Source of the DNA: an uncultured Bacteroidota bacterium
GTDB taxonomy: Bacteria; Bacteroidota; Bacteroidia; Chitinophagales; Saprospiraceae
Assembly: GCA_902609095.1 (NCBI GenBank)
Contig: CACLQQ010000008.1
Location: 1 to 54,169 of the forward strand
Length of the DNA stretch: 54,169 nt
Direction: 5' to 3'
Position numbers and translations under genes: made by a program. Numbering within the stretch: the first letter of the stretch is position 1; each line of letters begins with the position of its first letter. A model generated the notes under the pieces. That model was not told the DNA's origin. It saw nothing but the letters and a program-made list of their open reading frames with translations, and did no database searches. This document shows positions 31,068 through 37,069 of the stretch, in pieces.

Positions 31068-31741
31068 TTACAGGTGAATTTCACACTCGGTTTTATCCGA
31101 ATTGGCCCACCTTCCTGAACGACCTTGCCCTTTCAGCGTACAGTGTGTACATCCTACAGAATCAAAACCTTTTAGTTTCGGAGGGTGGGGAGGAATCTCC
31201 TTATCAGCAAGAAACATATCGAACTGCATAGCACTGGTATCAATGTTTGGGTGGATCTTAATGATATCCTCTCTTCGCTAGAAGATATTGAGGTTCTCTC
31301 TAAAAGGTGTTTGATTCATTAATAAACCAGAAACCCATATTTCTTATTTGCCTTTTAGGGTTCAAAATGTTTGACTTTGTTGATATGACGGTATTTATCT
31401 GTATCAGACTTCCACAGTTTAACCTCTCTTGCCATAGTATTATCTTCAACTGAGGGTAATATATGTACTATGTTGAGCCCCAACCTTTCAGTGAGAGTTT
31501 GTTTATATCCGATCGCTTTCGTAAAACAAAAGCTGGTGTCTATTAAGTATATCGGATGCCCTGGGGCCGCTTTACTTACCATGCCTATCAATATACCTGA
31601 TGTAGTCCCAAAAGATGACGTCACTAAGATATCGTCATGATCAAAGTCTTGAAAAACCTTCTTAAGCCTTTGGATTGGATTAAGCTTCTGGTAGACTTTA
31701 TTTAGCTCTTCTAATTCTATATCTGTTATCTCCGCTATCAT
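31068..31741 (-). pseudogene. cysH: Decayed phosphoadenylyl-sulfate / adenylyl-sulfate reductase
   Basis: CysH reduces activated sulfate to sulfite. The first 128 codons (31355-31741) are open and contain VTSSFGTTSGIL, the PP-loop, and IYLIDTSFCF. The rest is recognisable but broken: a TAA after KHFEP, a frame change near 31310-31325 in the segment equivalent to LMNQTPFRENLNIF, and a TAG right after it (about 31279). The C-terminal signature VGCTHCTLKGQGRSGRW...TECEIHL then runs to the TAA at 31068. In the final motif glycine is replaced by glutamate (CEIH for CGIH). The start ATG overlaps the upstream cysG stop as ATGA, so it was the last gene of the operon. Three lesions make sequencing error an unlikely full explanation. 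Confidence 0.88.
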
Positions 31742-32310
31742 ATTTCAATCAATGTTTTAGTAAGCTTATTCAACTCTTTTACCTTATACTCGAAATTTCC
31801 TTTCAATTGATCTCTGAATATTTTGAGATGCTCTAATAAATCATTCGTCTCAGAAGGAAAGACATCTTCTAATAATTGTCTGAATCTTTTAGAAAAGGTT
31901 GGTGACTTGCCATTAGTTGAAATAGCAATTTTCAGATCTCCTCTGGTTACAATAGAGCCCATGTAGAAGTCACAGAGATTTGGGGTATCAGCGACATTAA
32001 TGATTTTCCCTCGTTCATTAGCAGCCTTATATACCTGCATATTGACATCATTGAAATTAGTAGTGGCCATGACTAAGTCTGCGTCTTCAATATCTTCAGG
32101 CTCAAATGCCTTAGTTCGAATTGTGATCGAATAAGGGTACTGTTCGATTAATTCAGATACCTCCTCACTAAACCATGTAGCTAATACTATAATACTGGCG
32201 TTAGGACTGCTCTCCAAAATGAAATGCAATTTTTCTAAGCCGACTTCGCCAACTCCGACGATAAGCATCTTTAACTTATCGAGTCTAAAGAATACCGGAT
32301 ATAATTGATT
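31738..32310 (-). pseudogene. Precorrin-2 dehydrogenase / sirohydrochlorin ferrochelatase (CysG N-domain type), start codon lost
   Basis: This enzyme oxidises precorrin-2 and inserts iron to make siroheme, the cofactor of sulfite reductase. The frame has a Rossmann motif GVGEVGLEKL, then ATTNFNDVN, INVADTPNLCDFY and AISTNGKSPTFSKRFRQLLE, all typical. Coding similarity begins at the codons NQLYPVFFRLDKLK from 32310. The codon in the expected start position (32313-32311) is TAG and no ATG, GTG or TTG precedes it. An internal ATG at 32268 would give a 176-residue protein lacking the first beta strand but keeping the glycine motif. It may still be partly functional, so the pseudogene label is provisional. 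Confidence 0.65.
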
Positions 32311-32315
32311 CTAAC

Positions 32316-33063
32316 CTATAACCATTCTGACATAGCATATGAATGGATAAAATCTTGATGCAAAGCCACTACAACGCCAACTATTATAATTCCTGGACCG
32401 GTAATTTTAAGGCCTTCCCTGAACTCAAATACAGTTCCTGGATGAACTTTTTCTTCCTCTTTAGATCCATTTTCGATGATCATCATCGGTACATAACCCC
32501 TGCCTGACTCCATTAGTAACTGAGCAATCTGCTGAAGTTTACGAATGGCCATTAGGATCACCAATGTAGCATCAGTACTTACCGCTTTTTTTACATCTGA
32601 CGAGAGCTGATGATTCTTAGTTGTTCCAGTCAGCACCCAAAAACTCTCTGAAATATTACGAAGAGTTAGAGGCACTCCCTGCAATCCAGCTAAGGAAGTC
32701 ACACTTGATATCCCAGGAATGACTTCAACATTTACATTTCTTCCCTCTAAGAATAATTGCTCTTCATGACCCCGGCCAAAAAATAAATGGATCTCCCCCT
32801 TTAAGTCTTACCACATTTTGATATTGCAATGCCTTTTGATAAATCAGCGCATTAATATCGGCTTGTTTCAAACTATGCGTTTCACATCTTTTACCAACGT
32901 ATATTAGCTCGGCATGATCCGGTGCCTCTTCTAATAATTCCAATGATGACAGCGCATCGTACAGGACGACATTTGCCTTTTGGATAGCTTTCAATACTTT
33001 CACGCTGATAAGTTCTGAATCTCCTGGACCAGCACTAACTAAACTTACTAATGATTCTACCAT
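32316..33063 (-). pseudogene. cobA: Uroporphyrinogen-III C-methyltransferase, frameshifted
   Basis: SUMT methylates uroporphyrinogen III twice to precorrin-2, the first step to siroheme. The N-terminal half (32764-33063) has LVSAGPGDSELISVKVLKAI and VVRLKGGDPFIF. The C-terminal half (32316-32702 and a little before it) resumes as GRGHEEQLFLEG, VIPGISSVTSLAGLQGVPLT and SESFWVLTGTT. The two are joined exactly if one base is removed from the T6 run (plus-strand A6 at 32778-32783). The single-base change in a homopolymer could be natural or an assembly error; apart from it the gene looks normal. It starts 3 bases after the sulfite reductase stop. Confidence 0.85.
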
Positions 33064-33066
33064 ATT

Positions 33067-35194
33067 CTAAGCTTTATAATAACTTTCGACTATTTCTTTA
33101 TCTGCTCCATCATTAGCTTGCTGACTGTTACGATAGTCAATGATCAAATTCAAGAAGTGCTCCGCATCAATCAGTTGTTGTTCTGCAAATACTTGAGTGA
33201 GCTCTTGTTTATTGATAGCCAACGCCTTCTCCTTATAATTATAATCTAGTGAAATCTTGCCAAGATCAACAATTTCTTTTTGAAAGTCAGATATAATTTT
33301 TCTGTGAGTATTACATGCAATATCCTCAGAGAGAAGTATAGCTTTAGCTCCAACAACATAGGTGGCATAGGTATAATAAATTCCATCTGCATAATGCCCA
33401 GCAGCTACAGATTCTTTGGCGCTTACCAGTTTTTCTTTAGCATCATTTATAATAGTTCCAACCATATCCAGAATCGCTCCAGCACATTCACCAATACCAA
33501 TGGCTTGTTGATATAGATGGTCTTGACCCCAATCCATTAGATCGGTGTCTGTCAAGTCTTCAACAATAGCAAGAGGTTTAAGTAGGTTATAAAAGAATTT
33601 TTTGCCACCTACTCTCTCATAATAATGATTGAAACACTCTCCTTCCAATCCTTGCTCTAAGAAGTGGTCTAAGATATACCTAACACTGTCTGGAGTTCGC
33701 TTTGCAGGAATCTTGATTACTTTGTCGGCAATGTAAGGTTTACCTGACGGATCAACCCCTCCCCCTATTACAATCTGCATTGCAGGAATTACTTTGTCTT
33801 TCTTTTTAATCGAACTACCGTGAAATCCAATGTTTCCAATCATATGCTGCCCACATGCATTCATGCAACCGCTAATCTTAATCTTGATATGCTTATCTGC
33901 AATTAGTTCAGGGTATTCATCAGTAGGCATACTTTCCAGCACTCCGGATAATCCAGTACTGTTCGTTACTCCCAGATTACAAGTATCCGTTCCTGAACAT
34001 GCCGTTATATCCGCTACAGAATCATAACCTGGTTCTGCAAAGCCATAACGGTTTAAAACAGTAACCAAGTGATCTTCATGGACATACTTAAGTAGGATGT
34101 TCTGATTGATGGTCAGCCTGATATCATCTGCCGCATATTTCTTAACGATCCCAGCTAAATATCTCGCCTTCTCACTGGATAGGTCTCCTAAGAAAACTTT
34201 AATAAATATTCCAAAATATCCTTTCTGCCTTTGTTCGAAAGTATTAGTGGCTAACCATAAATCATACTTGTACTGATTTTTGGGAACCGTGACATTAGGC
34301 TCAAAATGTTCTACAGTTTGAGCGGGATCAGGTAATTCTTTAACTGGATAGCTTTGGGTCTTAATTGCTAATCGTTCTGTCTCCACTAATTGCTTAAACT
34401 TTTCAACTCCAATCTTCTTGATCAAAAATTTAAGACGAGCCTTGTGTCTTTTTTCTCGCTCTCCATGACGATCAAAAACTCTGAGGGCAGCCTCCATAAA
34501 TGGAATTACGTATTCTCCAGGTAAAAACTCAAAAGCCGTTTGAGCAAATAAGGCTTGCGCCCCCTAATCCACCACCAACTACTACCTTAAACCCTTCTAC
34601 CCCATCGACTGCGACTGGGATGAATCCAAAGTCATGCATAAAAGTCAGGGCATTGTCATGAATACTACTAGAGAATGCAGGCTTGATTTTACGGCCCATC
34701 TCTTGGCATATAGGGTTCCGGATAAAATAATGGGCGGTAACGTGAGCATATGGTGACACATCAAAAGGCTCATTTGTATCAATCCCCGCTTCAGCTGAGG
34801 CAGTTACGTTTCTAACCGTATTACCACATGCTTCACGAGCGGTTATACTTTTCTCAGCAAGTGCAGTCCAAACTGCAGGAGAATCATCAAGCTTAACATA
34901 GTGTAGTTGTATGTCCTGTCGGGTAGTAATATGCAGATTACCCGTTGCATATTTATCAGATACATCAGCGATACGCACTAACTGTTCGGCAGTTAGACTT
35001 CCGAAAGGAATCTTACTTCTAAACATCTGGACACCTAATTCCCTCTGCCCATAGATCCCTCTGGTCAATCTATACAGCTTAAATCGCTCTTCATCAATCT
35101 GTCCATTTTTAAATTTTTGTATCCTCTCCTCCAATTCATTAATGTCTTTTTCATCTTCTGGCGCGATGGTTAGTGCATCATGTGTTAAACTCAT
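33067..35194 (-). pseudogene. Sulfite reductase hemoprotein with C-terminal helical (HEPN-like) extension, frameshifted
   Basis: This enzyme reduces sulfite to sulfide using siroheme and a 4Fe-4S cluster. The first part (34529-35194) contains the substrate-binding repeat with NLHITTRQDIQLHYV and ends VVVGGGLG. The second (33067-34497) contains the cluster and siroheme ligands TACSGTDTC and SGCMNACGQH. About 140 mostly helical residues follow, of the HEPN-like type often attached to Bacteroidota sulfite reductases. Removing one base from the G5 run (plus-strand C5 at 34560-34564) rejoins them as GGGLGAQALFAQTAFEFLPGE. The start ATG is at 35194, only 20 nt beyond the attenuator terminator. It is the first gene of the sulfur operon. 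Confidence 0.88.
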
Positions 35195-35213
35195 CTGATT
35201 TATTTATTTACAT

Positions 35214-35245
35214 AAAAAAAGGCCTATCAAAAACTTGACAGACCT
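35214..35245 (-). terminator. Attenuator terminator in front of the sulfite reductase gene
   Basis: On the minus strand, arm AGGTCTGTCAA (35245-35235) pairs over 11 positions, including G-U pairs, with TTGATAGGCCT (35230-35220) around a 4-base loop. Seven U residues (35220-35214) follow. It ends 20 bases before the operon's first ATG, so transcription must read through it to express the genes. The 5' arm can pair alternatively with the upstream segment at 35265-35273. Confidence 0.85.
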
Positions 35246-35273
35246 GCTTATTAATATAATGACTCCTATCAAG
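35234..35273 (-). promoter_or_regulatory. Antiterminator hairpin of the cysteine attenuator
   Basis: Segment CUUGAUAGG (35273-35265) is nearly a copy of the terminator 3' arm. It can form 9 consecutive pairs with CUGUCAAG and its flanking U (35242-35234), which removes the terminator 5' arm. The overlapping segment UAGGAGUC (35268-35261) can also pair over 8 positions with GACUUCUA (35322-35315) inside the leader peptide gene. The four segments thus have the mutually exclusive 1:2, 2:3, 3:4 logic of an amino-acid attenuator. Confidence 0.7.
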
Positions 35274-35279
35274 ACATAA

Positions 35280-35345
35280 CTATCCATCAGCACAACAACA
35301 GCAACAAACTGTAGTAGAAGTCCTAAATGATTTAATATGTCTCAT
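35280..35345 (-). CDS. Polycysteine leader peptide (21 aa) of the sulfur assimilation operon
   Basis: The short reading frame starts with ATG at 35345, reads MRHIKSFRTSTTV followed by five consecutive Cys codons (35306-35292) and ADG, and stops with TAG at 35280. Five adjacent cysteines in a 21-residue peptide directly before sulfite reductase and siroheme genes strongly suggest a regulatory leader that senses charged Cys-tRNA. A ribosome paused at the Cys codons would cover segment 1 (35322-35315), let segments 2 and 3 pair, and prevent termination. A ribosome reaching the stop would mask segment 2 and allow the terminator to form. It is too short for ordinary gene callers. Confidence 0.8.
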   Translation of the reverse strand: MRHIKSFRTSTTVCCCCCADG

Positions 35346-35356
35346 GTTTTATTCAT

Positions 35357-35390
35357 AAAAAAAGCCTGTACGAAGAATCGTTCAGGCTTT
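35357..35390 (-). terminator. Upstream terminator of the tandem attenuator
   Basis: On the minus strand AAAGCCTG (35390-35383) pairs with CAGGCTTT (35368-35361). Four further pairs (ACGA with TCGT) lie beyond one mismatch, the loop is 4 bases, and a run of seven U residues ends at 35357. It lies between the upstream four-cysteine frame and the start of the five-cysteine leader, 12 bases before the latter's ATG. Confidence 0.8.
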
Positions 35391-35414
35391 AATTTTTCTT
35401 TTACACTATTATAC

Positions 35415-35470
35415 CTACCGAAGCTTTTCGAGTTGGGACCGACAGCAACAACAGATATTAATTTTTTCAT
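35415..35470 (-). pseudogene. Upstream polycysteine leader frame, out of frame with its ATG by one base
   Basis: Codons 35453-35442 read four consecutive cysteines (TGT TGT TGC TGT), followed by RSQLEKLR and TAG at 35417-35415. The only nearby ATG (35470) is followed by six A residues and is off by one. With seven A residues the frame would read MKKINI, four Cys, RSQLEKLR and stop. The segment at 35423-35413 resembles the 3' arm of the following terminator, as in the downstream module. It is therefore probably a second leader peptide, inactivated by a one-base loss or miscalled in a homopolymer. Confidence 0.6.
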
Positions 35471-35476
35471 TTAGAT

Positions 35477-35506
35477 AAAATATATTGATATTATTTATGA
35501 AACAAC
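35477..35506 (-). promoter_or_regulatory. Probable promoter of the sulfur operon
   Basis: On the minus strand GTTG (35506-35503) is followed after 18 bases by TATATTTT (35484-35477), which matches the TAnnTTTG -7 element at all but the last base. Transcription would start just before or at the ATG of the upstream leader (35470), so both attenuator modules would be included in the transcript. Confidence 0.5.
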
Positions 35507-35594
35507 TGGGACATCAAAAAATTACGTTAAAGGATAAATATTAAGTAAAAATTATCTTGTGTACGACATTACAAAACAACAATACCAAGAGTGT

Positions 35595-37069
35595 ATGTTA
35601 GCTAAAGCGTATGCAAGTGCTGTTCAAGGAGTCGATGCACAGACTATTACTATGGAAGTCAATGCTGGGAGAAATGTTGCCGCAGGAAAGCAATTCTATT
35701 ACCTCTTGGGCTTACCCGACAACGTTGTTAAAGAAGGATTTCAGAGAATAGAAGCTGCCATTAAAAATATCGGCTATGAAATGCCACGTCTCAAGCTGGT
35801 GGTGAACATGGCCCCTGCAGATATCCACAAAGAAGGGTCTGCCTATGATCTAACCATATCTGTTGGCATCTTAGCCGCTACCAAGCAAATTGCAGCCGAT
35901 AAATTGTCAGAATATCTTATCATGGGAGAGCTGGCTTTAGATGGAAACCTAAGGCCTGTAAAAGGTGCTCTGCCTTTAGCCATAGAGGCTCACGAGCAAA
36001 AATATAAAGGGATCATTCTTCCCAAGCAAAACGCCAATGAAGCTGCCATAGTCGATAATCTCAAAGTCTATGGTATAGATAATCTTGTTGAAGCGGTAGA
36101 ATTCTTGATCTAACGTTAAGGGACAAGAAAATATAAAAAGAGCATTAGAAATCACAGCCGCTGGTGGACACAATGTGATACTAATCGGTCCTCCTGAGGC
36201 AGGAAAGACCATGCTGGCTAAAAGGCTACTTGGGATATTGCCTCGACCCAGTTTACATGAAGCGCTAGAAGTGACCAAGATTCATTCTGTTTGTGGATTT
36301 CTTGGACCTAATTCTTCTCTCATCTCTTCAAGACCATTCAGAAGCCCGCATCACACGGTTAGTGATGTGGCTTTAGTTGGTGGTGGTTCTGATCCAATTG
36401 CAGGAGAAATATCTTTGGCTCAGAACGGTGTTTTTATTTCTGGATGAGTTGCCAGAATTCAAACGATCTGTTCTGGAAGTTATGCGTCAACCGATGAAAG
36501 AACGTCGAGTCACTATTTCTATTGCAAGAGTAACTGTGGATTACCCGTCCAGTTTCAATCTTGTCGCATCTATGAACCCATGTCCATGCGGATACTACAA
36601 TCACCCAGAGAAGGATTGTTCTTGTGGGCCAGGAATCATGAAAAAGTACCTGAATAAGATTTCCGGACCCCTACTAGATCGAATCGACCTACATGTAGGG
36701 GTTACATTAGTGTCTTATGATGGGTTAAGCAATCGTAAATATAAAAGTGAAAGCAGTCCGGACATCAGAGCAAGAGTGGCTACAGTAAGAAAAATACAAA
36801 AAGAGCTTTTTTAAGATTTTCCTGACATCTACTACGATGCTCAAATATTCAATAGGATGGGACAAGAAATGTGCCAATTACATACGGCTGGCATTACATT
36901 ACTTAAAACCACTATGGAAGGATTGCAACTGTCTGCCCGTGCATATGATCAAATATTAAAAGTGGCAAGAACATGTGCTGATCTATCAAGGAGTGAAGGA
37001 ATTGACATCCAGTACTTGGCTGAATCAATACAATATCGGAGCTTAGAGAGGGAAGGATGGGCGGGATAA
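35595..37069 (+). pseudogene. comM: Decayed ComM / YifB-type Mg chelatase-like AAA ATPase
   Basis: ComM is a hexameric helicase that promotes branch migration during natural transformation. Fragments in order: an N-terminal ChlI domain (MLAKAYASAVQGVDAQTI...EAVEFLI, to 36113); the AAA core from VKGQENIKRAL with Walker A GPPEAGKTM; LDELPEFKRSVLEVMRQP and MNPCPCGYYNHPEKDC; and a C-terminal domain ending QYRSLEREGWAG. Three lesions are seen: a deletion of about 40 residues with a frame change at 36113, one extra T in the T5 run near 36433, and an in-frame TAA at about 36812-36814. Several normally conserved residues in the core have changed. The real start is the ATG at 35595. Confidence 0.9.

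Follow-up and report, generated by a model that had tools for sequence, protein, structure and literature searches.

The window analyzed here is a stretch of 54,169 nucleotides from an uncultured bacterium of the Saprospiraceae (contig CACLQQ010000008.1 of assembly GCA_902609095.1), and the element in question is a minus-strand leader just ahead of a gene for sulfite reductase (SiR). The leader contains a short open reading frame (ORF), leader ORF 2 (35280..35345, minus strand), that runs from ATG to TAG over 21 codons plus the TAG, has the translation MRHIKSFRTSTTVCCCCCADG, and includes five consecutive Cys codons (35292..35306, minus strand) as the proposed site for a ribosome to stall. An earlier note on this DNA described such a frame, with its Cys codons at 35306-35292, and a letter-by-letter check matches it; relatives have short ORFs at similar positions. 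Beyond the frame come segment 2 (CTTGATAGG, 35265..35273, minus strand), the 5' half of a predicted antiterminator, and segment 3 (TCTGTCAAG, 35234..35242, minus strand), which would belong to both antiterminator and terminator; the two are mutually complementary, as previously claimed. Terminator 2 (AGGTCTGTCAAGTTTTTGATAGGCCT, 35220..35245, minus strand) is an 11-bp hairpin followed by a U-tract. The hairpin is real, and the distance of 20 nt to the start codon first given for it counts from the U-run; the last stem base lies 25 nt from the SiR ATG (35194).

Compared with shuffled sequences, the whole leader folds with z = -3.78 and the terminator stretch with z = -2.50. A consensus terminator scan of 34900-35700 finds a single terminator, which is terminator 2, against 0.4 +/- 0.6 in shuffles. 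The stretch holding segment 2 and segment 1 (a further segment, which had been proposed to pair with segment 2) is as stable as its shuffles (z = -0.26). Taken by itself, the window makes both the 1:2 helix and the antiterminator helix look unremarkable. Rfam 15 yields no match in the window at gathering score, a further Rfam scan gave sub-gathering matches only, and the assignment of the leader to a known RNA family was dropped at that threshold.

Comparison with other genomes is more informative. Of 148 relatives, 44 have an SiR match (E up to 0.001; weak and distant ones are included), and within the order the count is 107 of 396 genomes. The locus set built from them has 118 SiR loci, one per genome; weak matches are left out, as are G049, G193 and G250 for want of upstream sequence. 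A leader is counted where a short ORF with an ATG, GTG or TTG start and at least four consecutive Cys codons lies no more than 900 nt upstream of SiR. By this definition 56 of the 118 loci have the leader, and none of the 118 has it on the reverse strand; this recurrence of the Cys run before SiR, a check that the earlier note proposed, comes out in its favor. The family labeled f1 contributes 39 of its 69 loci, f12 all 11, f18 two of eight, f21 both of two, and f2 and f8 one of one each, while f20 has none in 26. (The f8 leader, L260, at -898 from SiR, is isolated, has a weak hairpin 141 nt away, and is doubtful and probably unrelated.) Presence of the leader tracks the SiR tree, with 10 changes where shuffled labels need 39.8; the tree is a quick one with many rows less than half filled, and in it all 26 f20 loci sit in a group of 38 with just four leader-bearing rows.

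A second collection, 80 titled loci that overlap partly in organisms with the first set (two of them have less than 50 nt of upstream sequence), contains 22 with a short ORF that encodes CCCC upstream in the coding orientation, 10 of them with two such ORFs, and none with one on the reverse strand. Carriers include Saprospiraceae metagenome-assembled genomes (MAGs), Phaeodactylibacter, Portibacter, a Chitinophagales MAG, and the Cytophagales Fulvivirga, Flexithrix and Marinoscillum. Portibacter marinus (L079), which can be cultivated, has a unit with its terminator. No ORF encoding CCCC appears upstream of SiR in the Flavobacterium loci, within the at most 2.5 kb of sequence covered. Four consecutive Cys codons are also absent from L202, which lies 4.4 kb before SiR in G008. 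With an ATG required at most 45 codons away and a stop at most 30, 83 of 87 TGY runs can be read in the Cys frame, 10 as Leu and three as Val/Ala; a Leu (YTG) reading of the run is thus disfavored by the start codons. Across leaders the run is 4 to 11 Cys long, and apart from it no peptide residues are evidently common to them by eye. Promoter matches near the first leader, scored against TTTG / TAnnTTTG, which we take to be the Bacteroidota consensus, reach at least 9 of 10 at 29 of the 56 loci, compared with 3.25 in mononucleotide shuffles, and end about 28-96 nt ahead of the first Cys run.

Terminators follow the Cys runs with regularity. The 56 loci hold 86 Cys-run sites, 76 of which are followed by a U-tailed hairpin under a looser criterion; a strong terminator (dG -12 or better, within 130 nt) follows at 73 of 86, compared with 1.0 in dinucleotide shuffles (three each). 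In an alignment of five loci (the window and four near relatives), all 11 pairs of the terminator are kept and six of the 11 are changed on both sides, the compensatory changes that the earlier note proposed as a check; pairing this high arises in one of 500 shuffles. The antiterminator was examined in 73 units, after removal of near-duplicates and far hairpins, by pairing the stretch between Cys run and hairpin with the 5' arm of the hairpin. A unit's own pairing averages -14.0 kcal/mol, against -9.0 for swapped partners, and is better than the mean for swapped regions in 72 of 73 units, which bears out the pairing of segments 2 and 3, and than the mean for swapped arms in 70 of 73; it falls within the top 5% in 25 and 37 of the 73, respectively. 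The arms of antiterminator and terminator are thus matched to each other within a locus but not across loci. The helix in the five-locus alignment outdoes every slid version of itself. Spacing is narrow as well: from the end of the Cys run it is a median of 12 nt to the start of segment 2 (interquartile range 9-13) and 59 nt to the hairpin (52-65), with 28 nt (24-33) from stop codon to hairpin. The end of segment 2 falls close to the stop codon (median -1 nt), within the span that a ribosome terminating there would occupy.

The unit of Cys run and terminator is often doubled, with two polycysteine ORFs in series at 29 of the 56 leader-bearing loci, which include a complete second unit that the earlier note overlooked along with its counterpart in the window. 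There, a degenerate first unit spans 35470-35361. Its leader ORF 1 (35415..35470, minus strand) is drawn from an ATG at 35470 through four Cys codons at 35453-35442 to a TAG at 35417-35415. It is followed by terminator 1 (AAAGCCTGAACGATTCTTCGTACAGGCTTT, 35361..35390, minus strand), a U-tailed hairpin with dG -15.7 that the consensus terminator scan missed. G001, G002 and G084, which make up the rest of the window's group in the SiR tree, each have two complete units.

It would appear that the leader is a cysteine-specific, ribosome-mediated transcription attenuator placed before a sulfate-assimilation operon, with one unit or, in relatives, two in series; judging from the sequences, we put the probability of this at roughly 0.87. 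Sequence comparison supports the in-frame Cys run, a terminator at regular spacing, pairings that exclude each other, SiR as the target gene and the doubling of units, and the model that it supports consists of segments 2, 3 and 4 (segment 4 being the partner of segment 3 in the terminator), with a terminating ribosome that would cover segment 2. Ribosome stalling and a response to cysteine supply are what we infer from it. Polymerase would transcribe a short ORF carrying a run of Cys codons. With Cys-tRNA charged, the ribosome would reach the stop codon and cover segment 2, leaving segments 3 and 4 to pair, and transcription would end ahead of the SiR gene. With Cys-tRNA scarce, the ribosome would stall within the Cys run and its front would reach roughly to the start of segment 2; segments 2 and 3 would then pair, the terminator would be blocked, and the SiR, siroheme and CysH genes, presumably co-transcribed, would be expressed. 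Where there are two units, polymerase would have to pass both, and this should deepen repression under plentiful cysteine.

Several observations weigh against the attenuator. The ORF is missing from 62 of the 118 SiR loci, among which are all 26 of f20 and 16 of the 17 of genus g7; upstream sequence is shorter than 110 nt for two of the 62 and 348 nt long for a third. In the window, the antiterminator stretch up to segment 3 has the stability of its shuffles (z = -0.17). The antiterminator of the five aligned loci is 86.7% paired, against 82.6% for shuffled letters, a level reached by 69 of 500 shuffles. The 1:2 pairing of the earlier note finds no clear support in relatives: own pairing exceeds swapped in 42 of 73 units with the 45 nt before the run and in 47 of 73 with the run included, segment 1 is not evidently common to the five aligned loci, and the helix is not retained as a general part. 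The Cys frame of ORF 1 in this assembly is out of register with the nearest ATG (35470) and has no ATG of its own; it may reflect either assembly error or real decay, because other genes of the window (SiR and the methyltransferase) are also split into frames. Finally, a terminator is lacking by the looser criterion at 10 of the 86 sites, and at six of 34 Cys-run sites in a second set (titled loci plus two MetY leaders), among them Fulvivirga, L052, Marinoscillum unit 1 and Phaeodactylibacter.

These sites without terminators lend something to an explanation by translational control in the style of mycobacterial polycysteine ORFs, by which the leader would decide whether ribosomes can reach the SiR start, with the hairpins incidental. 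Several cysteine genes of M. smegmatis are under translation attenuation according to a 2026 paper, Actinobacterial Cys-run leaders are described as being without conserved terminators in PMC1262725, and five leaders (L050, L052, L054, L187 and L306) stop right after the Cys run with no good terminator, so a second mechanism may exist in those. The SiR-first loci, however, have U-tailed hairpins at a fixed spacing (73/86) and matched antiterminators, which are the parts of transcription attenuation, and the first hairpin of the window ends about 165 nt ahead of the SiR start; translational control is an improbable account of them. Still less probable is that the peptides sense no tRNA and work as Cys-rich proteins in their own right, for instance by binding metals or thiols as sensors or by arresting their own nascent chains. 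Cys-rich peptides do in general bind metals, but here only the Cys run is evidently common, its length is variable, and neither Pfam (four peptides tried) nor NCBIfam (six tried) gives a match; the variation of the tail is accounted for because the tail carries segment 2. As for a chance meeting of a TGY repeat with the ordinary terminator of a neighboring gene, such repeats do occur inside coding frames, on other strands or in other frames. Against this stand the empty reverse strand, conservation across several families, and the divergent orientation of the gene upstream (plus strand from 35559), which means that the minus-strand terminators cannot be its own; coincidence is thus the least credible explanation and can hardly be entertained.

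The reading as a transcription attenuator invites comparison with known systems. The trp/his/thr-type leader-peptide transcription attenuators belong to Proteobacteria. The candidate shares with them a regulatory codon run, a terminator and a competing antiterminator placed for a stalled ribosome, all before the matching biosynthetic operon, and differs in its amino acid (cysteine), in its phylum, in having no conserved 1:2 hairpin that we could find, and in the two same-amino-acid units in series at 29 of 56 loci. Salmonella mgtCBR (PMC3641672) reportedly has tandem attenuators, with two leader ORFs in one leader; the likeness lies in the two leader ORFs with attenuators, and the difference is that here both units have the same codon run and the same design.

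Short Cys-run ORFs before cysteine or sulfur genes are known from mycobacteria and other Actinobacteria (PMC1262725 and PMC4633059), as the earlier note had said for mycobacteria. For the Actinobacterial leaders, Seliverstov 2005 (PMC1262725) describes no conserved terminator hairpins and suggests Rho, whereas the SiR-first loci described here, in a different phylum, combine terminators with antiterminators. According to Shell 2015 (PMC4633059), the mycobacterial candidates would be the first example in bacteria of attenuation directed by cysteine. Naville and Gautheret 2010 (PMC2965389) place leader-peptide systems in Proteobacteria and Actinobacteria, besides a Firmicutes case. From Bacteroidota, PMC9723704 notes leader-peptide attenuation in Flavobacterium psychrophilum, and PMC7366714 reports short ORFs in the 5' UTRs (untranslated regions) of Bacteroides thetaiotaomicron, which resembles the present case except that the passages on this in the two sources name no cysteine leader. 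Our literature search found no Bacteroidota cysteine attenuator, in keeping with the earlier note, with a flavobacterial case possible in the supplements of PMC9723704. In the literature searched, leader-peptide cysteine control is reported for Actinobacteria only, and there without terminators.

A second architecture differs from the one at SiR-first loci. In Fulvivirga, MAG L052 and Flammeovirgaceae MAG L054 the leader precedes genes for a ferredoxin and a MetZ-like protein and is 1.8-2.1 kb upstream of SiR, and in G063 and Fulvivirga a leader lies ahead of a MetY-like gene (MetZ-like and MetY-like being assignments from a by-eye reading of the sequences). The polycysteine ORFs of Cytophagales and those before MetY are mostly without a recognizable terminator. 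The stop codon comes directly after the Cys run in L050, L052, L054, L187 and L306, four of which lack a terminator by the criteria used, while the fifth has an unusual one; L050 and L306 are leaders of Fulvivirga that lack a terminator. A tail after the Cys run and a terminator therefore co-occur, as expected if the tail carries segment 2, and in leaders with neither the control may be translational. In Marinoscillum (L053) there are two Cys-rich ORFs, the second with an interrupted Cys run, yet with a clear U-tailed hairpin after it by eye.

It is likely, then, that Saprospiria and Chitinophagales have an undescribed class of cysteine-specific attenuators controlling SiR, about half of them with two units in series reading one tRNA twice, and that a second, terminator-less form, in which the stop follows right after the Cys run, precedes ferredoxin-MetZ-SiR operons and MetY, mostly in Cytophagales. 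If so, one phylum would hold both the terminator-based and the mycobacteria-like solution. Leader-peptide control by cysteine would have a terminator/antiterminator version of the classical type outside Actinobacteria, often with doubled units, and this would provide a testable account of cysteine sensing in a large group of environmental Bacteroidota. It would also imply transcription-translation coupling tight enough for attenuation in these organisms, and the dozens of natural variants would indicate which parts of the switch are constrained.

Runs of five Cys codons (TGYx5) are also informative genome-wide. In the source genome (2.76 Mb, 59% complete) five listed rows represent four sites, and the three sites other than the leader each overlap an open frame (500, 187 and 244 aa) that is read in a different frame or on the opposite strand. 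The same check covered six relatives and eleven genomes behind titled loci, with nine sites of G155-G157 left out, and a site was taken as coding where any other frame has at least 120 aa. The sites left by this filter are SiR or MetY leaders, a site in Arcicella (L122) and one (L125/L136) that lies within a frame of 103 aa. At L122 the TGYx5 arises from the U-tail of an ordinary intergenic terminator, a source of false hits for such scans.

Downstream of the leader, all on the minus strand, the window encodes the N-terminal part of SiR (34529..35194; NIR_SIR_ferr and NIR_SIR domains, with the frame broken near 34500-34530) and its C-terminal part (33067..34497), a uroporphyrinogen-III C-methyltransferase for siroheme synthesis in two frames (32316..33063), a siroheme synthase CysG N-terminal domain protein (31738..32268), and a short frame for a CysH-like PAPS reductase (31355..31741) that scores above the Pfam cut-off and below the NCBIfam cut-offs. 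The genes look like a sulfate-assimilation operon because siroheme synthesis genes and a CysH-like frame come after SiR. Within 31355-35194 the splitting of SiR and of the methyltransferase into two frames each, together with the shortness of the cysH-like frame, resembles the effect of single-base assembly errors. The best titled matches to the window, at 76 and 73% identity, put it in or near Saprospiraceae.
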